NCBI RefSeq assembly: GCF_014200395.1 | Contig: NZ_JACHBS010000001.1 | Location: 1-64,000, forward strand | Direction: 5' to 3' | DNA length: 64,000 nt | Source: Microcella frigidaquae | GTDB lineage: Bacteria; Actinomycetota; Actinomycetes; Actinomycetales; Microbacteriaceae | In this document: positions 20,878-50,694 of the stretch, piece after piece | Position numbering within the stretch: position 1 is the first letter of the stretch | How the letters are laid out: each line of letters opens with the position of its first letter | The notes under the pieces: model-generated | Told to the model about the DNA's origin: nothing | The model's database searches: none | The model's input: the letters and a program-made list of their open reading frames with translations, nothing else | Made by a program: the position numbers and the translations under genes

Positions 20878-20975
20878 CTCCACAATTCAGGAGTCGGCGG
20901 CGCGGGGCGTGGTCGTTGAGCGCTCTCACGGCGTGTTGGGCGGCTACAGGCGGGTGCGACTCCTGAGTTGTGGAA
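20878..20975 (-). repeat. Dispersed element copy R1 (98 bp, inverted arms)
   Basis: Arms at 20878-20893 (CTCCACAATTCAGGAG) and 20960-20975 (CTCCTGAGTTGTGGAA) are inverted around a 66-bp interior. The core reads on the minus strand (20939-20929), 20 nt from the right arm. It lies in the 237-bp gap between convergent genes. It shares a 19-bp interior block (20918-20936) with copy R8. Apart from this unit, 20833-21069 holds nothing recognisable. Confidence 0.85.
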
Positions 20976-21069
20976 ATGGGCGGGAGGGCTGCGGGCGGCT
21001 TCCGGAACTGCGGAAGCGAATGCACTCGGCTCACTCCCATCCGCAGATCGGGAAGGCGAGTGCGGAGCC

Positions 21070-22119
21070 TCAGGCGTCCGCGGGTCGCGCTTCGGTGCTG
21101 TCGATGCGCGCCGCGAGCGCGGCCGCGAAGTCGGTGGAGGCGAGGTGCCGACCCGTGCGCTCGACCTCGTGCACGAGGGCGACGAGAGCGGCGTTCACCG
21201 GGGTCGCGACGCCGAGCGAGGCGCCCAGGGCGACGACCGCGCCGTTGATCTGATCGACCTCGGTCGTGCAGCCGCGGCGGATGCTCTGCAGCATCGACGC
21301 GGGGTTGGGCACCTCGCCCATCCCGGCGGCGAGGGCGCGAGCGAGCTCGTCGGCCGCCGCCGTGCCACCCGTGCGGATGCGCGCCACGGCCTCCGCATCC
21401 ACCCCGCCGATGCGGCCCCAGGCGACACCGGCCGCGTCGCCGACCGCGACCGTCTCGACCATGCCGCGCGCGAGGATCGGCAGCAGCCCTGCGTCGGCGA
21501 CGGTCTGCTGCACGCTGAGTCCGGTGATCGCGGGCAGGGCGTTGACCTGGTTGACGAGCAGCTTCGTGAACTGGGCTCCGCGGATGTCGGGGGCGAGCAC
21601 GAGTTCCGCGGTGCCGTCGGGGGCGCCGCCGCCCGGCAGCGCGCTGCGCAGCAGCGGCTCGGCGACGGCGACCGCGGCCGGGTCGCCGCCGAGCGTGAGG
21701 CCGTTCGGTCCGGTGACGGTGATGCGGCCCGGGCCGGCGAGACTCACGGCGAAGAGCGCCAGGCCGATCGCGACGGGGGAGTGCGGCAGCGCATCCCGCA
21801 CCGCCTGCTCGCCGCCGAGGCCGTTCTGCAGCACGAGCACGGGGGTGCCGTCGTGCTCCGACCAGGGGGCGAGGGCGGCTGTTGAGTCGTGGGCCTTCGT
21901 CGCGAGCACGAGCAGGTCGACTGTCTCGTTCGGGATGCTGCGCACGAGCTCGACCGGGGCAACCCACGCTCCCCAGCCGCCGTCGACGCGCAGCCCGGCG
22001 GCGGCGATGGCGTCGGCGTGCTCGCCGCGCGCGGTCACGAGCACCTCGTGCCCCGCGCGCGCGGCCAGAGCGGCCAGGAGGCCGCCGACCGCGCCCGCTC
22101 CGATGACCGCGATGCGCAT
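21070..22119 (-). CDS. panE: Ketopantoate reductase family protein
   Basis: NADPH-dependent 2-dehydropantoate 2-reductase family (pantothenate synthesis), 349 residues. The N-terminal Rossmann loop is IGAGAVGGLLAALAARAG, followed by LVLATKAHD and LQNGLGG. The catalytic-type lysine is in FTKLLVNQVNALPAI near residue 180, and the C-terminal domain has SMLQSIRRGCTTEVDQINGAVV, a strong PanE/ApbA signature. Several paralogues with other substrates exist, so the exact reaction is not certain. The ATG has a TAGGCT -10 seven bases upstream. Confidence 0.82.
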   Translation of the reverse strand: MRIAVIGAGAVGGLLAALAARAGHEVLVTARGEHADAIAAAGLRVDGGWGAWVAPVELVRSIPNETVDLLVLATKAHDSTAALAPWSEHDGTPVLVLQNGLGGEQAVRDALPHSPVAIGLALFAVSLAGPGRITVTGPNGLTLGGDPAAVAVAEPLLRSALPGGGAPDGTAELVLAPDIRGAQFTKLLVNQVNALPAITGLSVQQTVADAGLLPILARGMVETVAVGDAAGVAWGRIGGVDAEAVARIRTGGTAAADELARALAAGMGEVPNPASMLQSIRRGCTTEVDQINGAVVALGASLGVATPVNAALVALVHEVERTGRHLASTDFAAALAARIDSTEARPADA

Positions 22120-22126
22120 GCTCGTC

Positions 22127-22132
22127 AGCCTA
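22127..22132 (-). promoter_or_regulatory. -10 element, leaderless panE promoter
   Basis: TAGGCT on the minus strand ends 7 nt before the ATG. Confidence 0.5.
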
Positions 22133-22188
22133 AGCGCGCGAGCCGCGCCGGCCGAGTGCCTCGCGCCCGCGCCGGGCCTCGCGCCCGC

Positions 22189-22194
22189 TAGCGT
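22189..22194 (+). promoter_or_regulatory. -10 element, leaderless truB promoter
   Basis: TAGCGT ends exactly 6 nt before the GTG of truB. Confidence 0.5.
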
Positions 22195-22200
22195 GGAGTT

Positions 22201-23157
22201 GTGCCCACCGGACTGCTGCTCGTCGACAAGCCGCAGGGTCTCACCAGCCACGACGTGGTCGCGCGTGCGCGCCGCGCCCTCGGCACCCGCAAGGTCGGCC
22301 ACGCCGGCACGCTCGACCCGATGGCGACCGGCCTGCTCACGCTCGGAGCCGATTCGGCCACGCGCCTGCTCACCTACCTGGTCGGCCTCGACAAGACCTA
22401 CGAGACGACGATGCGGCTCGGCGCCGCGACGACGACCGACGACGCCGAGGGCGAGACCGTCAGCACGGCCGAGCCGGCGGCGGTCGCGGCGGTGACCGAC
22501 GCGGCGCTCGCGGAGGGCATCCGTGCGCTCACGGGCGAGATCGACCAGCGGCCGAGCTCGGTGAGCGCGATCAAGGTCGACGGCAAACGCGCCTACGACC
22601 GCGTGCGGGCAGGCGAAGAGGTCGAGCTCGCGTCGCGCCGCGTCACGATCAGCGCGTTCGAGGTGCTCGCCGTGCGGCGCATCGACGCTGGCTCGGGCAC
22701 ACACGCCGCGATCGAGGTGGATGCCCGCATCGACTGCAGCTCGGGCACCTACATCCGCGCCCTCGCGCGCGACCTCGGCGCGGCCCTCGGTATCGGCGGG
22801 CATCTCACGGCGCTGCGGCGCACGCGTGTCGGGCCGTTCGAGGTGGCCGACGCCGTGAGTCTCGAGGCGCTGGCCAAGCAGGGCGCGAGTCTGCTCGCGA
22901 GCCCCGCGGAGGTTGCCGAACGACTGTTCCCGGTGCTCGAGGTCGACGCCGCGCAGGCCCGCGACCTCGGGCACGGCAAGCTGCTGGCGCTGCCCCAGCA
23001 CCCCGACGCCGAGCCGGTCGCCGCGATCGAGCGCGGCAGCGGCGCGCATCCCGACCGTCTGATCGCCCTCATCAGGGTGCGTCAGGGACGCGGTCGTACG
23101 CTGGTCGGGTTCCCGCAGGAGCACACGTCCGCATCCGCCCAGGAGGCCCCCCAGTGA
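22201..23157 (+). CDS. truB: tRNA pseudouridine-55 synthase
   Basis: Makes pseudouridine 55 in the T loop of tRNAs. The 318-residue product begins LLLVDKPQGLTSHDVVARAR, has the catalytic aspartate in GHAGTLDPMATGLL near residue 40, and continues with KTYETTMRLGAATTTDDAEG and CSSGTYIRALARDLG. These are all TruB hallmarks. The C-terminal extension is typical of Actinobacteria. GTG start with a leaderless promoter. Its stop overlaps the GTG of a small membrane protein by 4 bp. It is not next to ribF here, although that pairing is common in relatives. Confidence 0.96.
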   Translation: MPTGLLLVDKPQGLTSHDVVARARRALGTRKVGHAGTLDPMATGLLTLGADSATRLLTYLVGLDKTYETTMRLGAATTTDDAEGETVSTAEPAAVAAVTDAALAEGIRALTGEIDQRPSSVSAIKVDGKRAYDRVRAGEEVELASRRVTISAFEVLAVRRIDAGSGTHAAIEVDARIDCSSGTYIRALARDLGAALGIGGHLTALRRTRVGPFEVADAVSLEALAKQGASLLASPAEVAERLFPVLEVDAAQARDLGHGKLLALPQHPDAEPVAAIERGSGAHPDRLIALIRVRQGRGRTLVGFPQEHTSASAQEAPQ

Positions 23158-23534
23158 TCGAGTGGTTCAGCACGATCGCCATCGCCGTCAGCGTCATCGC
23201 CGGGCTCGTCGCCCTCGTGCTCGGCGGCATCGGCCGCAAGCCGGACGACTACAGCGTGCTGGCCACCGCGGCGGTCGCGCTCGTGCTCATCGTGCAGATC
23301 GTCATCGGCATCGTGGCCCCGTTCGTCGGCAACGAGCCGACCGGCGACATCGTCGAGTGGTGGATTTACCTCGTGACCGCCCTCGTGCTGCCGGTCGGGG
23401 CGATCATCTGGGCCCTGGTCGACCGCTCGCGCTGGGCGACCATCGTCATGGGCGTGGCGAGCCTCGCGGTCGCGGTCATGGTCTTCCGCATGAACCAGAT
23501 CTGGTTCGTGCAGGGCGTCGCGCTCGTCAGCTGA
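23154..23534 (+). CDS. Small four-helix membrane protein, unknown
   Basis: A 126-residue hydrophobic protein with four membrane helices: FSTIAIAVSVIAGLVALVLGGI, YSVLATAAVALVLIVQIVIGIV, WWIYLVTALVLPVGAIIWAL and WATIVMGVASLAVAVMVFRM. It is translationally coupled to truB. No family signature is recognised; similar small proteins next to truB occur in Microbacteriaceae. A role in RNA modification is not implied. Confidence 0.75.
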   Translation: MIEWFSTIAIAVSVIAGLVALVLGGIGRKPDDYSVLATAAVALVLIVQIVIGIVAPFVGNEPTGDIVEWWIYLVTALVLPVGAIIWALVDRSRWATIVMGVASLAVAVMVFRMNQIWFVQGVALVS

Positions 23535-23560
23535 CCCGAGCCCTGCTCCGGGATGCTCCC

Positions 23561-24229
23561 CTAGAGCCCCTCGATCGCCGCGAGCACCTCGTCGAGCGAC
23601 CCGGCGAGGTCGGCCACCACGAGCACCGCGCCCGTCTCGCGCAGGTCGTCGACCGAGAACACGCCCGTCGCAACGCCGATGAACGGCAGGCCCGCTGCGG
23701 CCGCGGCCTCGTCGTCGCGCGGGGTGTCGCCGACGATGACGAGGGTCTCGTCGGGCAGCGCCGCGCGCGCCGCGCGGGTGATCTCACTGCGGTCGCGGGC
23801 CGTCGCGCCGAAGAAGGAGCGGTCCCAGTCAAACCACTCCGGCCCGAGCCCGGCACCCTCGAGCTTGACGCGGGCGCGCACCAGCGAGTTGCCCGTCAGC
23901 AGCGCGTTGTGCCAGCCGCGGGCGGCGACCGCGGTGAGAGCATCCACCACGCCCGGAGCGGGCTCGCGCCGATCGCCCGCCTGCGCCCTCTCGATCGAGA
24001 GCTCGTCGAGCACCGCCCGGGCGCGCTCGTGCCACGCGTCGTCGTACCCGAAGTGGGCGAGGATCTCGCTGAGGATCAACCCGTCGGGCTTGCCGTGGGT
24101 GCGCGGCAGGGGCGGGTGCAGCTCGCGGCCGACGGTGCGCTCGACGGCCGTGTGGTACAGCTCGCCGCCGCCCGTGTAGCTGTTGAGCAGCAGGGTGCCG
24201 TCGACGTCCCAGAGAATCGTGGTGGTCAC
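23561..24229 (-). CDS. HAD superfamily phosphatase
   Basis: A 222-residue haloacid dehalogenase-type hydrolase with a helical cap, in the phosphoglycolate phosphatase/PGMB-like group. Motif I is DVDGTLL at about residues 8-14 with both catalytic aspartates, motif II is LLTGN, and motif IV is GDTPRDDEAAAAAG. The sequence between motif I and II suits a C1 cap. The substrate is not predictable from sequence. GTG start; an imperfect -10 (CAGGGT) lies 6 nt upstream. It is divergent from hemW across a long inverted repeat. Confidence 0.85.
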   Translation of the reverse strand: MTTTILWDVDGTLLLNSYTGGGELYHTAVERTVGRELHPPLPRTHGKPDGLILSEILAHFGYDDAWHERARAVLDELSIERAQAGDRREPAPGVVDALTAVAARGWHNALLTGNSLVRARVKLEGAGLGPEWFDWDRSFFGATARDRSEITRAARAALPDETLVIVGDTPRDDEAAAAAGLPFIGVATGVFSVDDLRETGAVLVVADLAGSLDEVLAAIEGL

Positions 24230-24257
24230 CCGTCAACCCTGCCAGACCCGTTGGGCC

Positions 24258-24337
24258 CCGTTCGCAACTCAGGCTGAGACGACATCGATGACCGGTTTAC
24301 GCGCCACACGTGTGAGCTCTGCCTGAGTTACGAACGG
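24258..24337. repeat. Long inverted repeat between HAD and hemW (distant relative of the dispersed element)
   Basis: Arms 24258-24278 and 24317-24337 match at 19 of 21 positions in inverted orientation around 38 bp. The arm contains CAACTCAGG, as does the divergent arm of R1, but the interior lacks the core motif and the spacing is shorter. It occupies most of the 132-bp divergent gap and could be a regulatory cruciform. Confidence 0.7.
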
Positions 24338-24361
24338 AACGCGGGCTGGGAGGATAGGCGG

Positions 24362-25600
24362 GTGCCCAGCGCCCTGCCCCTCGCCGACCCGGCACCCGAT
24401 GACGGGATGCTGCCGCCGAGCGTCATCGACGGCGCGGAGCACCGCGACCTCGGTGTGTACCTGCACGTGCCGTTCTGCCGCGTGCGCTGCGGCTACTGCG
24501 ACTTCAACACGTACACGGCCGACGAGATCCGCGGGGTCAAGCAGAGCGATTTCGCCGACCAGGCGATCGCCGAGGTCGCGCTCGCCGCGCGCGTGCTGCG
24601 CGACAGCGGGCTTCCGTCAAGGCCCGTGAGCACGGTCTTCTTCGGCGGCGGCACCCCGACACTGCTGCCCACGGACGACCTCGCGCGCATGCTCGCCGCG
24701 GTGCGCGACACATTCACGCTCGCGCCCGACGCCGAGGTGACGACCGAGGCCAACCCCGACTCGATCGACGCAGCGGGCCTGCAGCGCCTCGCCGCCGCCG
24801 GCTTCACGCGGGTCAGCGTCGGCATGCAGTCGGCCGTGCCGCACGTGCTCGCCGTGCTCGAGCGCACGCACGACCCCGAGAACGTGCCGCGCGTCGTCCA
24901 GGCCGCGAAGGAAGCGGGGCTCCAGGTCAGCCTCGACCTCATCTACGGCACCCCCGGTGAGTCGGCCGACGACTGGGCGCGCAGCCTCGACGCCGCCCTC
25001 GCGTGCGAGCCCGACCACATCAGCGCCTACGCGCTCATCGTCGAGGAGGGCACGAAGCTCGCCCGGCAGATCGCGCGCGGCGAGGTTCCGCCCGTCGACG
25101 ACGACCTCCACGCCGCGTTCTACGAGGCGGCGGATGCCCGGCTCACCGCCGCCGGCTACCACTGGTACGAGGTCAGCAACTGGGCGCGTGGCACGGCCGA
25201 CGCACCCGCCCACCGCTCGCGCCACAACCGCGCCTACTGGCTCGGCCACGACTGGTGGGGCGTCGGCCCCGGCGCGCACAGCCACGTCGGCGGTGTGCGC
25301 TGGTGGAACGTCAAGCACCCCGCCGCCTACGCCCAGCGCCTCGCGGCGGGCGTGAGCCCGGCCGCCGGGCGCGAGACGCTCGACGCCGAGACCCGCCGCG
25401 TCGAGCGCGTACTGCTGCAGACCCGACTCGTCGAGGGTCTGCCGACGGATGCCCTCACCCCGCTCGGCCGCCGAGCGGTCGCCCAGCTCATCGCCGATGA
25501 GCTCGTCGAGCCGGGGCTCGCGCTGCGCGGAACCGTCGTGCTCACCCTGCGCGGGCGCCTGCTCGCCGACGCCGTCGTGCGGCGCCTGCTGCCCGACTGA
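24362..25600 (+). CDS. hemW: Radical SAM heme chaperone HemW
   Basis: A 412-residue radical SAM protein of the HemW/HemN-like family, which binds heme and delivers it to targets; older annotation is oxygen-independent coproporphyrinogen oxidase. It has the cluster motif CRVRCGYC (CxxxCxxC) near residue 39, then FFGGGTPTLL and EANPDSID. VSVGMQSAVPHVLAVLERTHDP and the C-terminal HemN domain (YWLGHDWWGVGPGAHSH) follow. The cysteine arrangement fits HemW, not true HemN. GTG start. Its place between lepA and hrcA follows the ancestral actinobacterial order. Confidence 0.93.
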   Translation: MPSALPLADPAPDDGMLPPSVIDGAEHRDLGVYLHVPFCRVRCGYCDFNTYTADEIRGVKQSDFADQAIAEVALAARVLRDSGLPSRPVSTVFFGGGTPTLLPTDDLARMLAAVRDTFTLAPDAEVTTEANPDSIDAAGLQRLAAAGFTRVSVGMQSAVPHVLAVLERTHDPENVPRVVQAAKEAGLQVSLDLIYGTPGESADDWARSLDAALACEPDHISAYALIVEEGTKLARQIARGEVPPVDDDLHAAFYEAADARLTAAGYHWYEVSNWARGTADAPAHRSRHNRAYWLGHDWWGVGPGAHSHVGGVRWWNVKHPAAYAQRLAAGVSPAAGRETLDAETRRVERVLLQTRLVEGLPTDALTPLGRRAVAQLIADELVEPGLALRGTVVLTLRGRLLADAVVRRLLPD

Positions 25601-25606
25601 CGCGGC

Positions 25607-25993
25607 CTACTTCAGGAAGGTGATCGTCAGCGGGTAGGCGTAGGCCTCACCGCGGTTCGCCGCGAGAGCGGCGATGATCGAGAACACCAGAATCAGGATG
25701 CTGACCGCAGCGAGGATGATGACGCCGATCACGATCAGCGAGGTGATGACGCCGATCGCGGAGGCGATGAGCATCGTCAGCTGGAAGTTCAGGGCCGTGG
25801 CGGTGTGCCCGCGCACGAACGGGCCGCGATCCTTGAGCAGCAGGTAGCCGAGCAGCGCCGGGATGAACCCGAAGAAGATACCGCCGATGTGCACGAGAGT
25901 GGCCCAGAGCTTCTCGTCGCCGGGGCTCATCGGCTGCGGCGCCGAGGCGTAGGGGTTGGCGGGCGGCGGGGTCATGGGGGGCTGATCGCTCAT
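25607..25993 (-). CDS. DUF4870 membrane protein
   Basis: A 128-residue protein with a Pro-rich N-terminal tail (PPMTPPPANPYASAP) and a DUF4870 domain. It shows WATLVHIGGIFFGFIPALLGYLLLKDRG, ALNFQLTMLIA and hydrophobic helices ending RGEAYAYPLTITFLK. Function is unknown. A GTG five codons upstream is also possible. It is a tandem paralogue of the next gene, separated from it by a hairpin. It faces hemW with only 6 bp between stops. Confidence 0.85.
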   Translation of the reverse strand: MSDQPPMTPPPANPYASAPQPMSPGDEKLWATLVHIGGIFFGFIPALLGYLLLKDRGPFVRGHTATALNFQLTMLIASAIGVITSLIVIGVIILAAVSILILVFSIIAALAANRGEAYAYPLTITFLK

Positions 25994-26010
25994 GCGGTCA
26001 TTAAACACCG

Positions 26011-26041
26011 GCGGGCCCCGACCGGAGAGGTCGAGGCCCGC
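26011..26041 (-). terminator. Hairpin between the two DUF4870 genes
   Basis: GCGGGCC and GGCCCGC pair (7 bp), extended by five more pairs after one mismatch, with a GGAGA loop. On the minus strand it is followed by a short T-rich stretch (GTGTTTAATG), so it probably terminates the upstream DUF4870 transcript. Confidence 0.6.
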
Positions 26042-26059
26042 TGGTCGCGCCGACAGCGC

Positions 26060-26449
26060 CTACTTGATGAGGCGGATCGAAACGGGGTAGCGGTAGTTCA
26101 CGCCGTCCTTGGCCTTGACGAAGCCGAGGATCGAGAAGATCACGGCGGCGATCCAGACGAGCGGGATCAGGAACGAGATCAGCCCGCCGATGCCGAAGGT
26201 GACGGCGGCGAGGATGAAGCTCAGCACGTTCAGCGCCACGTAGGCGATGGTGACGGCGATCTGGAAGTTCAGGGCCTCCTTCGCCTCGGTGTTGGTGAAC
26301 GAGCCGCGGTCCTTGAACACGAGCCAGATGATGAGGGCCGGGAGGAAGCCGAGCACGCCGCCGAGGTGGGCGAACGAACCCCACTGGCGGTCCTCCGCCT
26401 CCGAGAGCGGGGCGGCCGGCTGGGCGGGGGGCGGAGTCTGGTCAGTCAT
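26060..26449 (-). CDS. DUF4870 membrane protein (paralogue)
   Basis: A 129-residue protein with a Pro-rich tail, then QWGSFAHLGGVLGFLPALIIWLVFKDRG (shown as two parts: QWGSFAHLGGVLGFLPAL, IIWLVFKDRG). KEALNFQIAVTIAY and a C-terminal VNYRYPVSIRLIK complete the DUF4870 fold with about three membrane helices. It has an AAAGG site 8 nt before the ATG. Similarity to the neighbouring gene indicates tandem duplication. Function is unknown. Confidence 0.85.
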   Translation of the reverse strand: MTDQTPPPAQPAAPLSEAEDRQWGSFAHLGGVLGFLPALIIWLVFKDRGSFTNTEAKEALNFQIAVTIAYVALNVLSFILAAVTFGIGGLISFLIPLVWIAAVIFSILGFVKAKDGVNYRYPVSIRLIK

Positions 26450-26563
26450 GGGCACTGCCTTTCAATGTTCTTAGTTCGGACGGATGGGTCCCGGGGTGGA
26501 GCACGAGGCAAACCTAGCGTCGAGCATCCGGCCCGGCAATAGGGGCACGCGGGAAGCCGGGGG

Positions 26564-26595
26564 TAGAATTGGCAGTCCGAAGCGGCGAGTGCCAG
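26564..26595 (+). promoter_or_regulatory. CIRCE operator with -10 element upstream of hrcA-dnaJ
   Basis: TTGGCAGTC-N9-GAGTGCCAG at 26569-26595 matches the HrcA operator CIRCE in its high-GC form (two mismatches between half-sites). A TAGAAT -10 at 26564-26569 directly abuts it, so HrcA bound here would sit on the start point and repress its own operon. Confidence 0.8.
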
Positions 26596-26655
26596 CACGA
26601 GGTGCGGGCCCGCCAACGGGAGACGACAGTCGATCAGGCGAGGGGAGTCGGAGCC

Positions 26656-28779: not shown

Positions 28780-28788
28780 CGCGCGGCC

Positions 28789-29547: not shown

Positions 29548-29558
29548 GGGCGGCGCTC

Positions 29559-29564
29559 TAGACT
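29559..29564 (+). promoter_or_regulatory. -10 element, leaderless HIT promoter
   Basis: TAGACT ends 7 nt before the ATG. Confidence 0.5.
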
Positions 29565-29571
29565 GGAGCCC

Positions 29572-29914
29572 ATGACCACGCCCGCACCGTCGATCTTCAG
29601 CCGCATCATCGCGCGCGAGATCCCGGCCGAGATCGTGCACGAGACCGAGACGGTGATCGCCTTCCGCGACATCGCTCCGCAGGCGCCCGTGCACCTGCTC
29701 GTCGTGCCGAAGACCTCGCGCTATCGCGATGTCGCCGAGCTCGCCGCGGGCGACCCCGCCCTGCTGGCCGACGTGGTGGCCACCGCCCACCAGCTCGCGA
29801 ACGAGCACGCCGACGGGCAGTTCCGGCTCGTCTTCAACACCGGTGCGAACGCCGGGCAGACCGTCTTCCACGTGCACGCCCACGTGCTCGCGGGAGGCCT
29901 GACCGAGGGAACCC

Positions 29915-29925
<11 letters not shown>
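29572..29925 (+). CDS. Histidine triad (HIT) nucleotide-binding protein
   Basis: A 117-residue HINT-type purine nucleoside phosphoramidase. It begins IFSRIIAREIPAEIV, contains QAPVHLLVVPK, and ends with the histidine triad HVHAHVLAGG. Size and motif are normal for HinT. It lies between rsmE and phoH as in many Actinobacteria. Its stop lies inside the first codons of phoH if that gene starts at TTG. Confidence 0.93.
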
Positions 29926-31033
<1,108 letters not shown>

Positions 31034-31036
31034 GCC

Positions 31037-37714: not shown

Positions 37715-37717
37715 CGA

Positions 37718-38515: not shown

Positions 38516-38612
38516 CTCCACAATTCAGGAAGAACGTCGTGACGGGATGCCCGCCGAGGCGCGCGTCGGCGTGTCGCGGCTCGCTCAACCCGCGCGCTCC
38601 TGAATTGTGGAG
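38516..38612 (-). repeat. Dispersed element copy R2 (97 bp)
   Basis: Arms 38516-38531 (ending GGAA) and 38597-38612 enclose 65 bp. The core CGGCGTGTCGC (38567-38577) reads on the minus strand 19 nt from the right arm. It fills the gap between two minus-strand genes (38465-38636), downstream of the TRIC channel gene and upstream of the NmrA-like gene. Confidence 0.88.
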
Positions 38613-38636
38613 ATCCGCCCGGGTCGGGCAGCCCCG

Positions 38637-39573: not shown

Positions 39574-39599
39574 CCGGGGTTCGAGCGGAAGGAGCATCC

Positions 39600-41605: not shown

Positions 41606-41608
41606 GCC

Positions 41609-43282
41609 GTGGCCCACATCCTCGTCATCGGCAGCGGCATGGCCGGCCTCGTCGCCGCGCTGCGCGCCGCTCGTCGGCACGACGTCACGATCGTCACGAA
41701 AGACGTGCTCACGGCCGGCTCGACCGCCTGGGCGCAGGGCGGCATCGCGGCCGCCGTCTTCCCCGACGACTCGGCCGCGCTGCACGCGCGCGACACGCTG
41801 CTCGCCGGCGCGGGACTCAGTGATCCCGCCGCCGTCGACATCCTCTGCACCGAGGGGCCCGCCCGCGTGCACGACCTCGTCGCCCTCGGGGTGGCCTTCG
41901 ACCCGGCCGAGGGCGCCGTCGCCCCCTTCGACGAGGTGAGCGACTGGGCTCGCGGGCTCGAGGCCGCGCACTCCGTCGCCCGCGTGCTGCATGCGGGTGG
42001 GGATGCCACGGGGCGCGTGATCGAGACGGCCCTCGCCGCCGCCGTGCGCGAGGGGCGCATCCGGGCTCGAGAATTCGCGCGCGCGACCTCGCTCATCGTG
42101 CGCGACGGCGCGATCGCGGGAGCGATCGTCGAGGGGCCCGACGGCGTTGCCGAGGTCGCGGCCGACGCCGTGATCCTCGCGACGGGCGGCAACGGGCGGC
42201 TCTACCGCCACACGACCAACCCGCCCGTGTCGACGGGCGATGGCGTGATCCTCGCCTACGCGGCCGGGGCGGCGATCGCCGACCTCGAGTTCGTGCAGTT
42301 CCACCCGACCGTGCTCGCCGGGGGAGGGCTCGTCTCCGAGGCCGTTCGCGGCGAGGGGGCGACGCTGCTCGACGCCGAGGGCCGCCGTTTCATGCTCGAC
42401 GTCGACCCGCGTGCCGAGCTCGCGCCGCGCGACATCGTGGCGCGCGCGATCGCCCGCCAGATGCGGGCGCAGGATGGCCAGCCGGTGATGCTCGACGCGA
42501 CGATGCTCGGCGCGGCGGTGCTGGCCGAGCGCTTCCCGACGATCGACGCGCTCGTGCGCGCGACCGGCGTCGACTGGGCGCGTCAGCCCGTGCCGGTCAC
42601 GCCGGCCGCGCACTACGCGATGGGCGGGGCCCTCACCGACATGGATGGCCGCACGACGGTGCCGGGCCTGTTCGCTGTGGGCGAAACCGGGTCGACGGGC
42701 GTCCACGGGGCCAACCGCCTCGCCTCCAACTCGCTGCTCGAGGCCCTCGTCGTGGGCTGGCGCGCGGGCGACGCCGTCGGCGCCGCGGGCTCGGTGCCCC
42801 CGCTGCCGCTGCCCGCCCTCGCCGCCGCGTCGCCCGTCCCGACCCCGCCGCGCGCCTCCACAATTCAGGAGTCGCCCTCGGACGAGCAGCTCGGCACCCC
42901 GGTGCCGGTGAGCCGCGCGATGGCGCCCGACGCCCTGCTCGCCGGGGGAGTCCCCTGGACGGCCGACCGCATCCGGGACCGCGCCTGGCAGGCGCTCGGC
43001 CTCGAGCGCACGGGCGACGAGATGGCTGATTTCGCCCGAGAACTCGAGGATGCCCGGCCTGCCGACGACGAAGCCCGCTCGCTGCTGCCGCTCGCGCGCC
43101 TGACCGCCGCGGCCGCGCTCGCCCGCACCGAATCGCGCGGCGCCCACTGGCGCGACGACTATCCCCACACCGACCCCGCGCAGCGCGTGCGGCGTGTCGT
43201 CGTGCGCCCCGATGCCGATTCTCCTGAATTGTGGAGATCGACCGCGGTCGAGCGGCCGCGCGCCGAGGAGGTTCCCGCATGA
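41609..43282 (+). CDS. nadB: L-aspartate oxidase carrying two repeat-derived segments
   Basis: FAD enzyme making iminoaspartate for NadA. The 557-residue product has GSGMAGLVAALRAA at the N terminus, STAWAQGGIAAAV, LATGGNGRLYRHTTNP, EFVQFHPTVL and ETGSTGVHGANRLASNSLLE. The C-terminal helical domain is present (RTESRGAHWRDDYPHTDP). Two copies of the dispersed element arm are read through in frame: STIQES at about residue 416, in the linker before the helical domain, and SPELWRS at about 538 near the end. Both seem tolerated. GTG start; stop overlaps the nadC ATG. Confidence 0.95.
   Translation: MAHILVIGSGMAGLVAALRAARRHDVTIVTKDVLTAGSTAWAQGGIAAAVFPDDSAALHARDTLLAGAGLSDPAAVDILCTEGPARVHDLVALGVAFDPAEGAVAPFDEVSDWARGLEAAHSVARVLHAGGDATGRVIETALAAAVREGRIRAREFARATSLIVRDGAIAGAIVEGPDGVAEVAADAVILATGGNGRLYRHTTNPPVSTGDGVILAYAAGAAIADLEFVQFHPTVLAGGGLVSEAVRGEGATLLDAEGRRFMLDVDPRAELAPRDIVARAIARQMRAQDGQPVMLDATMLGAAVLAERFPTIDALVRATGVDWARQPVPVTPAAHYAMGGALTDMDGRTTVPGLFAVGETGSTGVHGANRLASNSLLEALVVGWRAGDAVGAAGSVPPLPLPALAAASPVPTPPRASTIQESPSDEQLGTPVPVSRAMAPDALLAGGVPWTADRIRDRAWQALGLERTGDEMADFARELEDARPADDEARSLLPLARLTAAAALARTESRGAHWRDDYPHTDPAQRVRRVVVRPDADSPELWRSTAVERPRAEEVPA
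42856..42871 (+). repeat. Repeat arm R3a inside nadB
   Basis: A perfect CTCCACAATTCAGGAG in frame in nadB. No core motif lies 20 nt downstream, and the nearest inverted partner (R3b) is 349 bp away instead of 65-66. Confidence 0.85.
43221..43236 (-). repeat. Repeat arm R3b near the 3' end of nadB
   Basis: A perfect inverted arm. Upstream, GGCGTGTCGT (43191-43200) resembles the core at the expected distance (about 20 nt), so this may be half of a minus-oriented unit whose other arm is lost. Confidence 0.8.
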
Positions 43283-44199: not shown

Positions 44200-44208
44200 C
44201 GAGCATCC

Positions 44209-45363
44209 ATGACCCTCATCGATCTCGACCAGGCGGCGACGACCGCGACCCGCCGCGAGGTGCTCGAGGCCATGTGGCCGTGGCTCACGGGCGAGCACGG
44301 CAACCCCTCGTCGACGCACGCGCTCGGCCGCCGGGCCGCCGATGCCCTCGCGGATGCCCGCGCGCGCATCGCCCGCATCGCCGGCGTGCGCCCGGCGCAG
44401 GTCGTCTTCACGAGCGGCGGCACGGAGAGCGACAACCTCGCCGTCATCGGCCTCACCCTGGCGGCGATCGCGCGAGGGCGCGACCGTCACGTGCTCGTGA
44501 GCGCGATCGAGCACGAGGCGGTGCTCGAGTCGGCGGCGTACCTGGAGCGCTGGCACGGCGTCGAGGTGACGCGCATCCCGGTCGATGCCGACGGCGTGGT
44601 GGATGCCGATGCCGCGCTCGCCGCCCTCCGACCCGGCACGGCGCTCGTGAGCGTGCAGGCCGCCAACAACGAGGTCGGAACCCTCCAGCCGCTCGACGCG
44701 GTGCTCACGGCCGCGCGCAGCGTGGGCGCCCTCGTGCATACCGATGCCGTGCAGTACGCCGGGTGGTACCCGCTCGTAGACCTGCCCGCGCTCGACGCCG
44801 TGACGATCTCGGGCCACAAGCTCGGCGCCCCGAAGGGGGTCGGCGCGCTGCTGCTGCCGACGGGCGCGGCGATCGAGCCGCTCATCCACGGCGGAGGGCA
44901 GGAGCGCGACCGCCGGTCGGGCACCGAGAACGTGGCCGGGGCCGTGGGGCTCGCCGTCGCCCTCGAACGGGCGGAAGCCGAGCGGGGGGCGCATCCGCTC
45001 GCCGCGCTCGAAGCCCGCCGCGACGCGTTCATCGCGTGCGTGCTCGAGACCGTGCCCGGCGCGCGGTCGACCGGGCACGCGACGCGGCGGCTGCCCTGCC
45101 ACGCCTCGTTCGTCGTGCCCGGCATCGGCGGCGAACCGCTGCTCATCGCGCTCGACGACCGCGGCATCCTCGCCTCGAGCGGCTCGGCGTGCGCGGCCGG
45201 CCGCGACGAGCCCTCGCCCGTGCTGCTCGCGATGGGCTGCGACCCCGACACCGCCCGAACCGCGGTGCGCTTCAGCTGGGGGGCCTCCACAATTCAGGAG
45301 TCGCTCGACACGGCGGCGCGTGAGCTCGCGGAATCAGCGGCCTCTCTGCGCGGCCTGGGCTGA
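44209..45363 (+). CDS. Cysteine desulfurase (NifS/IscS type)
   Basis: PLP enzyme taking sulfur from cysteine; in this operon it most likely builds the NadA iron-sulfur cluster. The 384-residue product has the PLP lysine in ISGHKLGAPKGVGALLLP near residue 203, HTDAVQYAGW, and the catalytic cysteine in SSGSACAAGRDEP near 327. The last 26 residues (STIQES onward) begin in a dispersed-element arm (45285-45300), so the C terminus is partly repeat-encoded. Association of a NifS-like gene with nadABC is common. Confidence 0.93.
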   Translation: MTLIDLDQAATTATRREVLEAMWPWLTGEHGNPSSTHALGRRAADALADARARIARIAGVRPAQVVFTSGGTESDNLAVIGLTLAAIARGRDRHVLVSAIEHEAVLESAAYLERWHGVEVTRIPVDADGVVDADAALAALRPGTALVSVQAANNEVGTLQPLDAVLTAARSVGALVHTDAVQYAGWYPLVDLPALDAVTISGHKLGAPKGVGALLLPTGAAIEPLIHGGGQERDRRSGTENVAGAVGLAVALERAEAERGAHPLAALEARRDAFIACVLETVPGARSTGHATRRLPCHASFVVPGIGGEPLLIALDDRGILASSGSACAAGRDEPSPVLLAMGCDPDTARTAVRFSWGASTIQESLDTAARELAESAASLRGLG

Positions 45364-45392
45364 GCATCCGCCGAATCTCCTGAATTGTGGAG
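45285..45392. repeat. Dispersed element copy R4 (108 bp, long interior)
   Basis: Arms 45285-45300 and 45377-45392 are perfect and inverted, but the interior is 76 bp and the only core-like sequence (CGACACGGCGG) is 4-5 nt from the left arm. Probably a rearranged copy. It spans the desulfurase 3' end and the gap before recO. Confidence 0.8.
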
Positions 45393-45452
45393 ACGGGCGC
45401 CCGAATCGTGGATGCCCGCCGCGCCGTCGGGCCCGTTCGCACCCGCGCGCGG

Positions 45453-45458
45453 GATACT
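45453..45458 (+). promoter_or_regulatory. -10 element, leaderless recO promoter
   Basis: GATACT ends 6 nt before the GTG. It lies downstream of R4, so recO expression should not depend on that insertion. Confidence 0.45.
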
Positions 45459-45464
45459 GGAGCG

Positions 45465-46220
45465 GTGCCGACCTACCGTGACGAGATCGTCGTGCTGCGC
45501 ACCCACAAGCTGGGCGAAGCCGACCGCATCGTCACGATGCTCAGTCGCAATCACGGCAAGATCCGCGCGGTGGCCAAGGGGGTGCGGCGCACGGCGAGCA
45601 AGTTCGGCGCGCGCCTCGAGCCGTTCATGGTCGCCGACGTGCAGCTCTACGCCGGCCGCAGTCTCGACATCGTGCAGCAGGCCGACACGCTCGGCGCGTA
45701 CGGCGCCGAGATCTCGGGCGACTACGCGCGCTACACGGCCGCCACCGCGATGGTCGAGACGGCCGACAAACTGACGGGCGACGACGGCGGGGGCATCCAG
45801 CAGTACCTGCTGCTGGTCGGCGCGCTGCGGTCGCTGGCCCGCGGCGATCATCCGCCGAGCCTCACCCTCGACAGCTACCTGCTGCGGGCGCTGTCGATCG
45901 CGGGATGGGCGCCGACCTTCGGCGACTGCGCCGTGACCGGCGCGCCCGGCCCCCACAGCGCCTTCGTGGTGCAGCTCGGAGGCATGGTCGCCGACGAGGT
46001 CGCCCCACCCGGGTCGCCGCGCGTCTCGGACGAGACGCGCGGGCTGCTCGCCGCCCTGCTCACCGGCGACTGGGCCGCGGCCGAGGCGAGCGCGCCGGCC
46101 GCGCGCGCGCAGGCCACCGGCATCGTGGCGGCCTACACGCAGTTCCACCTCGAGCGCGGGCTGCGGTCGCTGCCGCACGTCGACCGGTCAGAGCCTGTCT
46201 CGCGGGCGGCGACGGCGTGA
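45465..46220 (+). CDS. recO: DNA repair protein RecO
   Basis: Recombination mediator that loads RecA with RecR and anneals strands. The 251-residue product has an N-terminal OB fold ([23 protein letters not shown], i.e. [19 protein letters not shown]), then [16 protein letters not shown], and a helical C-terminal half. Only part of the zinc-finger cysteines seen in some RecO proteins are present (DCAVTGAPG). GTG is chosen because of the -10 six bases upstream; the open frame starting in R4 is ignored. Confidence 0.93.
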
Positions 46221-46260
46221 GCATCCCGCCCGCCGGCCGCGCGCCCCGCCCCGCCGCCGT

Positions 46261-46358
46261 CTCCACAATTCAGGAGCTGTGATGGCCCGCGAGCCGCGAC
46301 ACGCCGAGCCGCTGCGTCCGATCGACTGGACGGGCGAGCATCCTCCTGAATTGCGGAG
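46261..46358 (+). repeat. Dispersed element copy R5 (98 bp) overlapping the uppS start
   Basis: Arms 46261-46276 and 46343-46358 (one G-for-T change: CTCCTGAATTGCGGAG) enclose 66 bp with the core GCGACACGCCG at 46296-46306, 19 nt from the left arm, plus orientation. The left arm ends in CAGGAG, 5 nt before the uppS ATG, and the rest encodes the first 25 residues of UppS. Confidence 0.9.
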
Positions 46359-47076
46359 AGAAGCGGTGCCGCAGCACGTCGCCATCGTCATGGACGGCAA
46401 CGGCCGCTGGGCCAACCGGCAGGGCCTCACGCGCGTCGAGGGCCACCGCGCGGGCGAGGCGAGCCTGCTCGACGTCGTCGCCGGGGCGATCCAGATCGGC
46501 GTGCGGCACCTCAGCGTCTACGCGTTCAGCACCGAGAACTGGAGCCGCAGCCCCGACGAGGTGCGCTTCCTCATGGGCTTCAACCGCGAGGTGCTGCGTC
46601 GCCGCCGCGACCAGCTCGATGCGTGGAACGTGCGCATCCGCTGGGCCGGGCGTCGCCCCCGCCTGTGGCGCAGCGTCATCAGCGAGCTGGAGGAGGCGCA
46701 GGCCCGCACGGCCCGCAACACGGGCCTGACGCTGACGATGTGCGTCAACTACGGGGGCCGCATCGAACTGGTGGATGCGGTGCGCACCCTCGCCGCCGAC
46801 GTGCAGTCGGGCCGCCTCGACCCGGCGCGCATCACCGAGCGCACGATCGCGAAGCACCTCTACGAGCCCGACCAGCCCGACGTCGACCTCTTCGTGCGCT
46901 CGAGCGGCGAGCAGCGCACGAGCAACTTCCTGCTTTGGCAGAGTGCCTACGCCGAGATGGTCTTCCTCAACACGCTGTGGCCCGACTTCCGGCGGCGCCA
47001 TCTGTGGGCGGCGATTGAAGACTTCGCGCAGCGCGACCGCCGCTTCGGCGGGGCGGTGGATGCTCCCTCCGCCTAG
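46282..47076 (+). CDS. uppS: Isoprenyl diphosphate (undecaprenyl/decaprenyl) synthase with repeat-derived N terminus
   Basis: cis-Prenyltransferase making the polyprenyl carrier for cell-wall synthesis. The 264-residue product has [19 protein letters not shown] with the catalytic aspartate near residue 34, [15 protein letters not shown], and [20 protein letters not shown] ([28 protein letters not shown]). The ribosome site AGGAG (46272-46276) and the first 25 codons are contributed by element R5, upstream of the conserved domain. A GTG directly before the ATG is too close to the ribosome site. Confidence 0.94.
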
Positions 47077-47110
47077 CTCGTCGGCGCGCAGCCGCGCGAC
47101 TCGCGGTCAG

Positions 47111-47116
47111 TAGACT
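47111..47116 (+). promoter_or_regulatory. Putative -10 for glyS
   Basis: TAGACT lies about 55 nt upstream of the expected ribosome-bound leader and 61 nt before the GTG; AGGAG precedes that start. Confidence 0.4.
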
Positions 47117-47177
47117 TCTGCCTTACGTGCTACTCGGCCCCGGGCATCCAGCTCGGGCGGAACAGGAGAACCCCACC

Positions 47178-48563
47178 GTGGCTGCCCCCTCTCGGCTCGA
47201 CAAGGTCATCGCGCTCGCCAAGCGGCGCGGATTCGTCTTCCAGGCCGGTGAGATCTACGGCGGTTCGCGCTCGGCGTGGGACTACGGCCCCCTCGGCGTC
47301 GAGCTGAAGGAGAACATCAAGCGCCAGTGGTGGCGGTCGATGGTGACGCGTCGTGACGACGTCGTGGGGCTCGACTCGAGCGTGATCCTGCCGAAGCGCG
47401 TCTGGGAGGCCTCCGGCCACGTCGAGGTCTTCAGCGACCCGCTCGTCGAATGCCTGAGCTGCCACAAGCGCTACCGCGCCGATCACCTCGAGGAGGAGTT
47501 CGAGGAGAAGAAGGGGCGCGCACCCGAGGGCGGGCTGGCCGAGATCGCGTGCGCCAACTGCGGAACCCGCGGCCAGTGGACCGAGCCGAAGGAGTTCTCG
47601 GGCCTGCTGAAGACCTACCTCGGCCCCGTGGACGACGAGTCTGGCCTGCACTACCTGCGTCCCGAGACCGCGCAGGGCATCTTCGTGAACTTCGCCAACG
47701 TGCTGAATGCCGCGCGTATGAAGCCCCCGTTCGGCATCGGTCAGATCGGCAAGTCGTTCCGCAACGAGATCACCCCCGGCAACTTCATCTTCCGCACCCG
47801 CGAGTTCGAGCAGATGGAGATGGAGTTCTTCGTCGAGCCGGGCACCGACGAGGAGTGGCACCAGTACTGGATCGACACCCGCTTGCAGTGGTACGTCGAC
47901 CTCGGCGTGAACCCCGAGAACCTCCGGCTCTACGAGCACCCGGCCGAGAAGCTGTCGCACTACTCGAAGCGCACCGTCGACATCGAGTACCGCTTCGGCT
48001 TCTCGGGCTCGGAGTTCGGCGAGCTCGAGGGCATCGCGAACCGAACCGACTTCGACCTCTCGACCCACTCGCAGCATTCCGGCGTCGACCTCTCATACTT
48101 CGACCAGAGCAAGGAGGAGCGCTGGACCCCGTACGTCATCGAGCCGGCGGCCGGCCTCACCCGCTCGCTGATGGCCTTCCTCGTCGACGCCTACTACGAG
48201 GATGAGGCGCCCAACACGAAGGGCGGCGTGGATGTCCGCACCGTGCTGCGTCTCGACCGCCGCCTGGCCCCGGTGAAGGCGGCGGTGCTGCCGCTGTCGC
48301 GCAACGAGCAGCTCTCGCCGGTCGCGCGCGAGCTTGCCGACCGCCTGCGCCAGCACTGGAACGTCGACTTCGACGACGCGGGAGCGATCGGCCGCCGCTA
48401 CCGCCGGCAGGACGAGATCGGCACGCCGTTCTGCGTCACCGTCGACTTCGACACCCTCGACGACCAGGCCGTGACCGTGCGCGAGCGCGACACCATGGCG
48501 CAGGAGCGCATCCCGCTCTCGACGCTCGAGGGCTACCTGGCCGGGCACCTGCTCGGCGCCTAG
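47178..48563 (+). CDS. glyS: Glycyl-tRNA synthetase (single-chain class II)
   Basis: Charges tRNA-Gly. The 461-residue homodimeric-type enzyme has [20 protein letters not shown] near residue 30, a zinc site (CLSCHKRYR and CANCGTRGQ), class II motif 2 [32 protein letters not shown], and the C-terminal anticodon-binding domain ([14 protein letters not shown] [16 protein letters not shown]). GTG has AGGAG 9 nt upstream; the 17 upstream codons are rejected. Conserved recO-uppS-glyS-dgt-dnaG order. Confidence 0.96.
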
Positions 48564-48604
48564 CCGCGCGGCCCTCGCTGCCTCCGCCTCCTCACCTGCG
48601 CCGT

Positions 48605-48701
48605 CTCCACAATTCAGGAGTCATGGTGCCCGGAGGGTCATCCGCGGCCCCGTTTCGGCGTGTCGCGGCGCCTTCCGCGCGCCGACTCCTGAGTTGTGGA
48701 G
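48605..48701 (-). repeat. Dispersed element copy R6 (97 bp)
   Basis: Arms 48605-48620 and 48686-48701 (GAGTTG variant) enclose 65 bp; core CGGCGTGTCGC at 48656-48666 reads on the minus strand, 19 nt from the right arm. It lies between glyS and the DUF559 gene. The rest of the 241-bp gap (48564-48804) holds only a weak -10 (CATTCT) 6 nt before the DUF559 ATG. Confidence 0.9.
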
Positions 48702-48804
48702 CGGGGCTGGCCCGAGGCTCCTCCCCACGAAGCGAGCGCGGCTCCCGCGCTGTCAGCCCGTGCGCGTCGGCGCAGGGCGAGCGTGGGCCGGGCATTCTGC
48801 GCCG

Positions 48805-49809
48805 ATGGATGCTGCTGCCCTGGTCGCCCGTTGCGGCGGCGCCCTCGACCGACGCCGGCTGCACGAGCTGGGCGCCACCGATCACGACCTTCGGCGCGCC
48901 CTCCGCGCCGGAGCGCTGAACCGTCCCCGTCGCGGCTGGTACTCGACCTGGCCGGAGGACGATCCGCGCTTCCGCGCGATGCGCGTCGGTGGGCGGCTCA
49001 CCGGCATCAGCGCGGTGGCCGCTCTCGGCGGCTGGGTGCTCGGCCGCCACCCGCTGCATGTCGCGGTCGCCACCAACGCTTCCCGATTGCGCACGCAGTG
49101 GCGGCGCGATCTCAGGCGGGCGGATGCTCTCCCGGACGGCGTCGTCGTCCACTGGGTCGCCCCCGCGCACGATCGGGGTTCGTCGACGGCCATCGTTCCT
49201 CTGCTCGACGTTCTCGAGCGCGTCTGCCGCGATGAGTCCGTCGAGCAGGCGATTGCCGTGCTCGACTGGGCGCGCCACACGGGTCGGCTCGACCGGATCG
49301 GTCTGGTACAGCTCGGTGAGCGGTTGGGCGAGCTTCGCTGGCTCATGGGGGCGAGCACCGACAACGCCGACTCTCTGCCCGAGAGTCTGGCGCGAACGCG
49401 CCTCCGTGCGGCGGGGCTCGACGTGCAACCCCAGCAGGGGTTCCGCGACACCGTCGAGCGCATCGACCTCGTGATCGAGGGCACTGTCGCGCTCGAGGTC
49501 GATGGTGACGAGCATCACCGCGAGACGTTCGAGTCCGATCGCGCTCGCGATCTCGACATCACCGCCGCAGGGCTGCACGCTCTCCGCCCGAGCGCTCGGC
49601 AGGTCTACACCCGCTGGCCCCGGGTCGAGCAAGCCGTGGTGCGCGCGCTGCACGAGCGCGGCATCCTCGTCTATCTCCACAATTCAGGAGTTGCCCAGGT
49701 CGGACGCCCCGCGACACGCGCGGAGAGCCCTCCACCGGGCCTCGTGAGCGGGCCGAATCCTGAATTGTGGAGACGTGCGGAAGGAATACGGGAGGCGCCC
49801 GCACGTTGA
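48805..49809 (+). CDS. AbiEi-like HTH plus DUF559 (Vsr-like nuclease fold) protein
   Basis: A 334-residue protein. The N-terminal part (HELGATDHDLRRALRAGALN, RPRRGWYS) resembles the winged-helix domain of AbiEi-type regulators. The C-terminal DUF559 domain carries IDLVIEGTVALEVDGDEHH, with the acidic D...E.D pattern of the Vsr/PD-(D/E)xK nuclease fold near residue 225. Such proteins are common in Microbacteriaceae and their role is unknown. ATG is chosen because upstream codons run into R6. The last 44 residues (after HERGILVY) come from element R7 and flanking DNA. The gene is bracketed by element copies. Confidence 0.8.
   Translation: MDAAALVARCGGALDRRRLHELGATDHDLRRALRAGALNRPRRGWYSTWPEDDPRFRAMRVGGRLTGISAVAALGGWVLGRHPLHVAVATNASRLRTQWRRDLRRADALPDGVVVHWVAPAHDRGSSTAIVPLLDVLERVCRDESVEQAIAVLDWARHTGRLDRIGLVQLGERLGELRWLMGASTDNADSLPESLARTRLRAAGLDVQPQQGFRDTVERIDLVIEGTVALEVDGDEHHRETFESDRARDLDITAAGLHALRPSARQVYTRWPRVEQAVVRALHERGILVYLHNSGVAQVGRPATRAESPPPGLVSGPNPELWRRAEGIREAPAR
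49675..49772 (+). repeat. Dispersed element copy R7 (98 bp) in the 3' end of the DUF559 gene
   Basis: Arms 49675-49690 and 49757-49772 (first base A) enclose 66 bp; core GCGACACGC at 49711-49719, plus orientation, 20 nt from the left arm. It is read in frame by the DUF559 gene as LHNSG...NPELWRR. Confidence 0.9.
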
Positions 49810-49816
49810 CCTCAGC

Positions 49817-50491
49817 GTGAGCAACCCCATCGACGTGCAGATCTGGTCCGACGTGCAGTGCCCCTGGTGCTACATCGGCAAGCGGAAGTTCGAGGCCGCC
49901 GTCGACGAGTTCCGCCAGCGTGGCGGCGACGTCACCGTCACCTACCGCAGCTTCGAGCTCGCGCCCGACACGCCCGTCGACTTCGAGGGCACGCCGATCG
50001 ACTACCTCAGCCAGCGCAAGGGCATCAGCCCTGAGCAGGCGCAGCAAATGGTCGACCGCGTGAGCAGCATCGCCGCGAGTGTGGGGCTCGAGTACCACTA
50101 CGACCGCATCCACCAGACGAACACCGTGCTCGCGCACGAGCTGCTGCACTTCGCGAAGGCGCACGACAAGCAGGGTGAGCTCAAGGAGCGTCTGCTCCGC
50201 GCCTACTTCACCGAGGGGCGCCACATCGGCCGAGCCGACGAGTTGGCCGAGCTCGCCGCCGAGGTCGGGCTCGACCGTGAGGCTGCCGCGGCCGCGCTCG
50301 CCGAGCACACCTACCTGCCCGACGTGAAGGCCGACATGGCGCAAGCCGTCGCGTACGGCATCCAGGGCGTGCCGTTCTTCGTCATCGACGCGAAGTACGG
50401 CATCTCGGGTGCCCAGGAGTCCGCGAGCTTCCTGGCCGCCCTGCAGCAGGCCGCCGCCGAGCGCGACGCCGTCGGGGCCGACGCCTCATGA
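49817..50491 (+). CDS. FrnE-like DsbA family oxidoreductase
   Basis: A 224-residue cytosolic thioredoxin-fold protein with the CPWC active site (SDVQCPWCYIGKRKFE) near residue 12, a helical insertion, and cis-proline GVPFFVID near 183. This fits the FrnE/2-hydroxychromene isomerase-like DsbA group. The GTG start is uncertain: a GGGAGG lies 22 nt upstream and an in-frame GTG at 49775 is inside repeat R7. Its stop overlaps a 42-codon frame by 4 bp. Confidence 0.88.
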   Translation: MSNPIDVQIWSDVQCPWCYIGKRKFEAAVDEFRQRGGDVTVTYRSFELAPDTPVDFEGTPIDYLSQRKGISPEQAQQMVDRVSSIAASVGLEYHYDRIHQTNTVLAHELLHFAKAHDKQGELKERLLRAYFTEGRHIGRADELAELAAEVGLDREAAAAALAEHTYLPDVKADMAQAVAYGIQGVPFFVIDAKYGISGAQESASFLAALQQAAAERDAVGADAS

Positions 50492-50616
50492 CAACGGATG
50501 CGGCGCCCCAGCCCTTCGCCATGCTCGGCGACCCCGCCGCCGAGGCCTGCCAGGGCGACGCCTGCCTGGTCCCCGGCGCTGCCCCCGCGCCCGTTGCCTC
50601 CGCAATTCAGGAGTAG
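50488..50616 (+). CDS. 42-residue peptide coupled to the FrnE-like gene
   Basis: ATG overlaps the preceding stop (ATGA). The product is TTDAAPQPFAMLGD then PAAEACQGDACLVPG and an Ala/Pro run, with two cysteines spaced CxxxxC. Many FrnE-like proteins carry a short Cys-containing tail, so this may be a detached tail or a small partner peptide. The last residues (ASAIQE) and the stop come from the left arm of element R8. Not recognised as a known family. Confidence 0.5.
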   Translation: MTTDAAPQPFAMLGDPAAEACQGDACLVPGAAPAPVASAIQE

Positions 50617-50694
50617 CGGTCGCCGCGGGTGCTCGACACGCCGTGAGAGCGCTCCCGCAGCTCTGCCCGCTCGCTCGTCTCCTGAATTGTGGAG
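50598..50694 (+). repeat. Dispersed element copy R8 (97 bp)
   Basis: Arms 50598-50613 (CTCCGCAATTCAGGAG) and 50679-50694 enclose 65 bp; core CGACACGCCG at 50634-50643, plus orientation. The block 50636-50654 is identical, in inverse, to 20918-20936 of R1. It lies between convergent genes. Confidence 0.9.

Follow-up and report, generated by a model that had tools for sequence, protein, structure and literature searches.

Convergent arm pairs around a nuclease-like gene of Microcella frigidaquae: probable binding sites of an AbiEi-Vsr protein

The window analysed here comprises the first 64,000 nucleotides of contig NZ_JACHBS010000001.1 of Microcella frigidaquae (genome G000 below; its relatives are referred to as Microcella, Microbacteriaceae or broader). 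It carries 16 copies of a 16-bp arm that form eight convergent pairs, R1 to R8, most with a short oriented word, the core, at a set distance from the arms. In the slot between glyS and a dsbA-like gene, flanked by R6 and R7, lies a gene whose product, in its predicted structure, looks like an AbiEi antitoxin joined to a homing-endonuclease fold of the Vsr/EDxHD kind. A first-pass annotation of this DNA described the pairs as miniature inverted-repeat transposable element (MITE) or repetitive extragenic palindromic (REP)-like units spread by moving, and overlooked the gene, which is the probable source of the cognate protein. Here we describe the pairs, the gene and their counterparts in relatives, and weigh the reading that the pairs are binding sites of the encoded protein against its rivals. 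The features of the window are as follows.

20878-20975, minus strand: R1, convergent arm pair, 98 bp; minus-strand core with two mismatches
38516-38612, minus strand: R2, convergent arm pair, 97 bp; minus-strand core exact
42856-43236, minus strand: R3, convergent pair with both arms within nadB, 381 bp; arm spacing 365
45285-45392, plus strand: R4, convergent pair with the left arm in a desulfurase gene and the right arm ahead of recO, 108 bp; arm spacing 92
46261-46358, plus strand: R5, convergent pair at the recO/uppS junction, 98 bp; exact core at 46296-46306
47127-48563, plus strand: glyS, left neighbour of the slot
48605-48701, minus strand: R6, convergent pair upstream of the nuclease gene, 97 bp; minus-strand core exact
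48805-49806, plus strand: gene of the probable cognate protein, 334 residues, in the glyS-dsbA slot, flanked by R6 and R7
49675-49772, plus strand: R7, convergent pair, 98 bp; core with two mismatches
49775-50491, plus strand: dsbA-like gene, right neighbour of the slot; open reading frame (ORF) as listed, true start possibly later
50598-50694, plus strand: R8, convergent pair downstream of the dsbA-like gene, 97 bp; plus-strand core with one mismatch

All 16 arms located by the first-pass annotation were recovered at up to three mismatches, against a mean of 0.16 and a maximum of 1 in 100 shuffles, and the six pairs to which it assigned a length of 97-98 bp (R1, R2, R5, R6, R7 and R8) indeed measured 97 or 98 bp. 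The single arm is itself visibly an imperfect palindrome, as operators often are. Across the whole of G000, a single contig of 2.549 Mb, the arm has 34 matches at up to two mismatches and the reversed arm pattern none. The core of R3 (43190-43200, one mismatch) lies 20 nt off the right arm, while the best core of R4 has two mismatches and an offset unlike that of the other pairs. As a word, the core is not enriched in the window (104 matches at up to two mismatches vs 178 expected), so its meaning rests on position. Several arms lie within coding sequence: the right arm of R5 lies in the uppS codons for PPELRR, and both arms of R7 fall inside the 3' end of the nuclease gene.

The start codon of that gene, the ATG at 48805, was picked by alignment; the open frame begins further up, at 48694. 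In the AlphaFold model, residues 1-185 form a two-domain AbiEi-like part with an N-terminal winged helix that aligns with AbiEi 6y8q, residues 186-288 adopt a Vsr-like catalytic fold with the conserved acidic residues and histidine of an EDxHD homing endonuclease, and a low-confidence tail, the part overlain by R7, follows. The nuclease residues are invariant. The PF18741 (MTES_1575) profile matches with an E-value of 4e-7, below the cut-off, and this assignment is the precomputed annotation in many relatives. No DUF1814 AbiEii toxin gene adjoins, the neighbours being glyS and dsbA.

Gene and sites occur together in the genus. In a protein search, 23 of 26 genomes gave an ortholog match of at least 240 bits, and G007, G009 and G025 gave weak family matches only. 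Sites accompany the gene in all 23, whereas the near-complete genomes G007 and G009 lack both (two and one stray arm matches, respectively, at two mismatches). G025 alone has sites only, with 13 matches to the CTCC arm, one of the arm types described below, and no detected ortholog; the assembly is 71% complete, so that this is either an assembly gap or an array without its gene. Present and absent alleles are seen at the one glyS-dsbA slot, where the two flanking protein matches are separated by 4 bp in G007 and 0 bp in G009. Over approximately 104 kb, G000 and G009 are colinear with eight gaps over 250 bp, of which three exceed 1 kb. One of 8.4 kb lies to the left of the window, one of 2.8 kb spans 78331-81136, and one of 1.25 kb falls at glyS-dsbA (48557-49803) and holds one gene, that at 48805-49806. 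Nothing matching the 2.8-kb stretch was found in the other loci fetched, among them those of site-bearing genomes, so it is not what generally accompanies the sites; judged by eye, it appears to encode an IS481-like transposase and an FAD-linked oxidase (L068, window numbering). The 8.4-kb stretch (approximately -18.4 to -10.0 kb, L071), which adjoins two site pairs, is absent from the syntenic G009 and G015, and G015 does have sites.

Comparison of twenty stretches from relatives, most of them syntenic, disposed of an early impression that the arm is absent from half of the genus, since most such genomes carry another arm. With the exception of G007 and G009, the Microcella genomes examined that lack the CTCC arm carry the arm GTC[AG]ACAAYTCAGGA[CG] instead, and these GTC-type pairs often keep the place and spacing of CTCC-type pairs; a spacing of 172 at recO/uppS, for example, is common to G002, G003, G008 and G024 despite their differing arm type. 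The R3 spacing of 365 is found in G005, G011, G013, G017, G022 and G023, among others, and this spacing and the R4 spacing of 92 recur at orthologous places elsewhere, so that the description of the nadB and desulfurase pairs as rearranged does not hold. Arms lie at orthologous codons in 15 of 19 genomes for the left nadB arm, 17 of 19 for the right nadB arm, 15 of 19 for the desulfurase arm and 12 of 19 for the uppS arm, and these orthologous arms match their own genome's type, bar the mixed uppS arms of G008, G024 and G022, the first two of which are intermediate between the types. In G007 and G009, which have none of these arms, uppS encodes the same HPPELRR by other codons, and the desulfurase arm region reads STIQES vs TTTAEQ in G009. 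Since the arms overlie conserved codons, sites appear to arise and to be altered through base substitution, which in places changes an amino acid.

Arm type is nearly uniform within each genome, the most mixed being G008, G024 and G003, and it follows the nuclease more closely than the surrounding genes. For 18 genomes, the nuclease tree accounts for the three arm types in two changes, which is the fewest possible, whereas a GlyS/UppS/DsbA tree needs six; with shuffled labels both trees needed four or more, and on the flank tree, several nodes of which are weakly supported, 157 of 2000 shuffles needed no more than six. G008 and G024 combine CTCC arms and a CTCC-type nuclease with flanking genes that group with those of GTC genomes, and G022 shows the reverse. 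Exchange of the nuclease allele, followed by retuning of the surrounding sites, would be the simplest account of these sequences.

Pairs are also concentrated around the gene. For 120 pairs in nine genomes, density per kb is 0.89 within 1 kb of the gene, 0.28 at 1-3 kb, 0.14 at 3-10 kb, 0.10 at 10-30 kb, 0.019 at 30-100 kb, 0.0017 at 100-300 kb and 0.0005 beyond 300 kb, a drop of over a thousandfold. This count excludes unpaired single arms and, among others, genomes with fragmented coordinates; GTC-type genomes were counted by exact arms, and the genome lengths of G085 and G158 were rounded.

The geometry of the pairs is equally regular. Across 87 partly overlapping loci, 170 pairs of arms within 450 bp face each other and 9 stand back to back, all 9 of the latter between two complete pairs; some pairs carry extra tandem arms 34-36 bp outside. 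At one locus of G015 (1704823-1705122, L153), two sets of three arms face each other in a symmetric array, spaced 55-56 in tandem and 68 at the centre. The claim of an oriented core at a fixed offset was borne out among 102 distinct elements of 97 or 98 bp from Microcella loci, the window's own included: taking the best match at up to two mismatches, 97 have the core at 19/35, 20/35 or 19/36 nt from the arms, three have their best core elsewhere (one by 1 nt), and two have a three-mismatch core only. Beyond the core, the pair interior is nearly uninformative; conservation of the arms in this set partly reflects selection, as the searches required near-consensus arms. Total lengths, moreover, recur in steps. 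In 75 pairs from six other genomes (6 of 12, including 17 of the 22 pairs of G077), only lengths of 77-80, 88-90 and 100 bp occurred within an allowed range of 74-102, yielding a phase statistic of 65 vs a maximum of 17 in 2000 null draws; one further pair, outside this set, measures 81 bp. After conversion by hand to this measure, Microcella pairs mostly have lengths close to 78, 89-90, 100 or 111, and the long ones lie close to 216, 352 and 373; spacings of 94-95 and 172 are exceptions to helical phasing. Pair lengths of mostly whole helical turns suggest proteins that touch on one face of the helix.

The first-pass proposal that the pattern be sought elsewhere in the genome and in relatives proved fruitful, insofar as pairs are widespread with conserved spacing and core, and similar arrangements extend through the family. 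An AbiEi-Vsr family match is present in 80 of 120 Microbacteriaceae genomes, and in 17 of 30 fetched family loci (two of the 17 from Microcella) the gene adjoins glyS, dsbA or both. When the two Microcella loci are set aside, 25 of the remaining 28 loci, which represent 24 other genera, have a perfect inverted pair of at least 11 bp near an end of the gene (upstream in 18 and downstream in 20), where shuffles averaged 2.4 and never exceeded 6. Many of the arms, though not all, are variants of CAAYTCAGGA or GAAAYTCAGGA. Sixteen of the 120 genomes contain pairs of the GAAAYTCAGGA type, from 1 to 22 of them each, and all 16 belong, among the matches listed, to the 80 with the family gene; as the arm was chosen from gene-bearing loci, this count serves as a consistency check rather than a blind test. 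The Microcella-type arm is found, sparsely, in three further genera (G150, G165 and G169): in G165 a family gene lies between pairs, and in G150 and G169 no family gene was seen by eye among ORFs of at least 200 residues. In two other genera (G085 and G161; L226-L228 and L229-L231), inward GTCGC/GTCAC motifs stand near each arm, and the pair interiors also carry a central CGCGG..CGCG-like dyad.

Paralogs within Microcella display the same architecture. Among 20 paralog loci hand-picked from weaker family matches, 14 have an inverted pair of at least 12 bp, compared with 4.9% of random places. One paralog unit (L169, approximately 9570-10725, at approximately 1.25 Mb in G000) consists of pair, gene and pair in approximately 1.2 kb, with arms like GCAC[AG]ARTGAAGGA. 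G009, G011 and G013 lack it, their flanks being 5 to 38 bp apart; for G017 and G022 the searched strand yielded no alignment, so that these two genomes are uninformative. The right pair of this unit has other arms, yet holds two facing copies of the GACACGCC core, in the two-sided form ACGGCGTGTC-GCAGA-GACACGCCGT. These sequences suggest that the reading of the arm varies while that of the core is shared.

Taken together, the co-occurrence of gene and sites, the density of pairs centred on the gene, the tracking of the nuclease allele by arm type, and retuning in place argue that the units are paired convergent binding sites, whether operators or targets, of the AbiEi-Vsr protein; we place the probability of this reading, homing-type versions included, at roughly 0.7. 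The first-pass annotation had offered a protein-binding unit as a fallback, and this fits. That the protein encoded at 48805-49806 binds the sites is, judging from sequence comparison, very probable. The winged-helix domain would read the arm, protomers on facing arms, mostly whole helical turns apart, would meet across the intervening DNA, and another, conserved domain may contact the core, with a dimer or higher-order contact spanning the pair.

As to what the array is for, we lean, short of even odds, toward a homing-type selfish gene ahead of a chromosome organiser and, in turn, a local regulator. The gene may be a free-standing homing-type selfish gene whose surrounding sites protect its chromosome segment, a proposal that we hold only tentatively. 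The protein could bias or block recombination with gene-free DNA, and such a role would explain why the sites lie mainly within tens of kb of the gene and match the resident allele. A more specific version, to which we give slightly less credence, is that the gene, whose product has a DNA-binding part derived from an antitoxin, has ringed itself over approximately 100 kb with many matched site pairs that guard its own haplotype: incoming DNA without matched sites would be rejected or corrected toward the gene-bearing segment, and sites would evolve to match a swapped allele.

The rival that survives best, although we consider it unlikely, is a domesticated chromosome organiser that bridges pairs and folds the approximately 100 kb around the gene into a domain, much as ParB acts at parS or MatP at matS, and in which the nuclease domain would act in DNA binding or regulation. 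Looping is suggested by the convergent pairs and their mostly helical phasing, many genera retain the glyS/dsbA slot, and sites persist within coding sequence. However, the sites centre on the gene itself, the nuclease residues are unvarying, and G007 and G009 dispense with gene and sites alike. In G000 the cluster lies approximately 280 kb from the single dif-like site and approximately 1.06 Mb from dnaA and is thus centred on neither; a terminus macrodomain of the MatP-matS kind was rejected on the same ground. The dif-like site, identified by an actinobacterial pattern, occurs once in each of eight genomes tested (in G000 at 328725, the gene lying at 49 kb), and its distance from the gene is 275-287 kb in G017 and G004. 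Three DnaA-family matches of equal score are found in G000, at 673623, 1054953 and 1809730, possibly IstB-type insertion-sequence genes.

Less probable still is local control of transcription by looping, in which an AbiEi-type autoregulator has spread its operators to neighbouring promoters. Pairs do occur both up- and downstream of family genes, and AbiEi antitoxins autoregulate via inverted repeats (PMC7319586). Yet R3 has both arms inside nadB and R7 both in the gene's own 3' end, the neighbours of the sites (nad genes, recO, uppS and leuA) have no evident common role, and regulation alone leaves the fall in density with distance unexplained.

Very little probability attaches to the idea that the sites belong to another, unlinked DNA-binding protein and that the nuclease gene is a passenger: G025 has sites without a detected ortholog, but arm type fits the nuclease tree, density is centred on the gene, and other family members carry pairs with other arms. 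The mobile-unit reading with which the first-pass annotation began, a MITE or REP-like unit moved in trans, now seems the least credible of these, in spite of the constant length, inverted arms and both orientations of the pairs, the clean presence or absence of the whole L169 unit, and a pair at 69.8 kb that constitutes approximately 105 bp of extra DNA vs G009, by either insertion or deletion; arms that overlie conserved nadB, desulfurase and uppS codons were not inserted, relatives have the codons at R3, R4 and R5 without an insert, the 102 elements show little interior conservation of the kind expected of transposon-derived DNA, arm type is near-uniform per genome and differs at shared positions, and spacing runs mostly in helical-turn steps. 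A structured RNA, also suggested at first, was rejected because the stem has 3 both-sided compensating cells against 62 broken ones (and 13 one-sided G-U), and Rfam at gathering thresholds finds only a transfer RNA in the window (59358-59430); a phage origin or target was rejected as well, with 0 viral contigs bearing ACAAYTCAGGA pairs in a scan of that arm.

Several known systems approach this arrangement in part. Homing endonucleases as a rule have no intact target left in the chromosome that encodes them. Compared with EDxHD/Vsr-type homing endonucleases such as I-Bth0305I, the Microcella gene stands free on the chromosome, the N-terminal part of its product is AbiEi-like, and genomes that carry it have many matched sites around it. 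In ParB-parS, MatP-matS, Noc and RacA, too, one region of the chromosome contains many scattered sites for a DNA-binding protein, and ParB sites lie near the ParB gene. The present array, by comparison, lies off the origin and dif, is composed of paired, mostly phased sites, involves a nuclease fold, and differs in sequence specificity between close species. The type IV antitoxins AbiEi of S. agalactiae, with which residues 1-185 align, and Rv2827c of M. tuberculosis bind inverted repeats and control their own expression (PMC7319586); here the AbiEi-like part is joined to a nuclease fold, the neighbours are glyS and dsbA rather than an AbiEii toxin gene, and the sites extend over approximately 100 kb. 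MTES_1575, of the same nuclease family by the sub-cut-off profile match given above, is described as a novel Vsr restriction endonuclease fused to HEPN and winged-helix domains; by the positions given its protein is approximately 2000 residues or more, and the portion of that source consulted mentions no site array (PMC3710099). Among the literature matches listed for AbiEi, Vsr/EDxHD, homing and Microcella repeats, a search largely outside subscription papers, no description of such an arrangement appeared. The folds of the parts are known; the function of the arrangement is a prediction.

If the haplotype-guarding reading is true, a selfish gene would be re-engineering its chromosomal neighbourhood base by base, as one case of a family-wide strategy. 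The AbiEi-Vsr family, large and poorly understood, gains probable DNA sites together with natural specificity variants and loss strains, which opens binding, cleavage and drive to experiment. If an array of sites centred on one gene is retuned when alleles are exchanged, that gene would be shaping the chromosome around it in a new manner, down to the codons of housekeeping genes.

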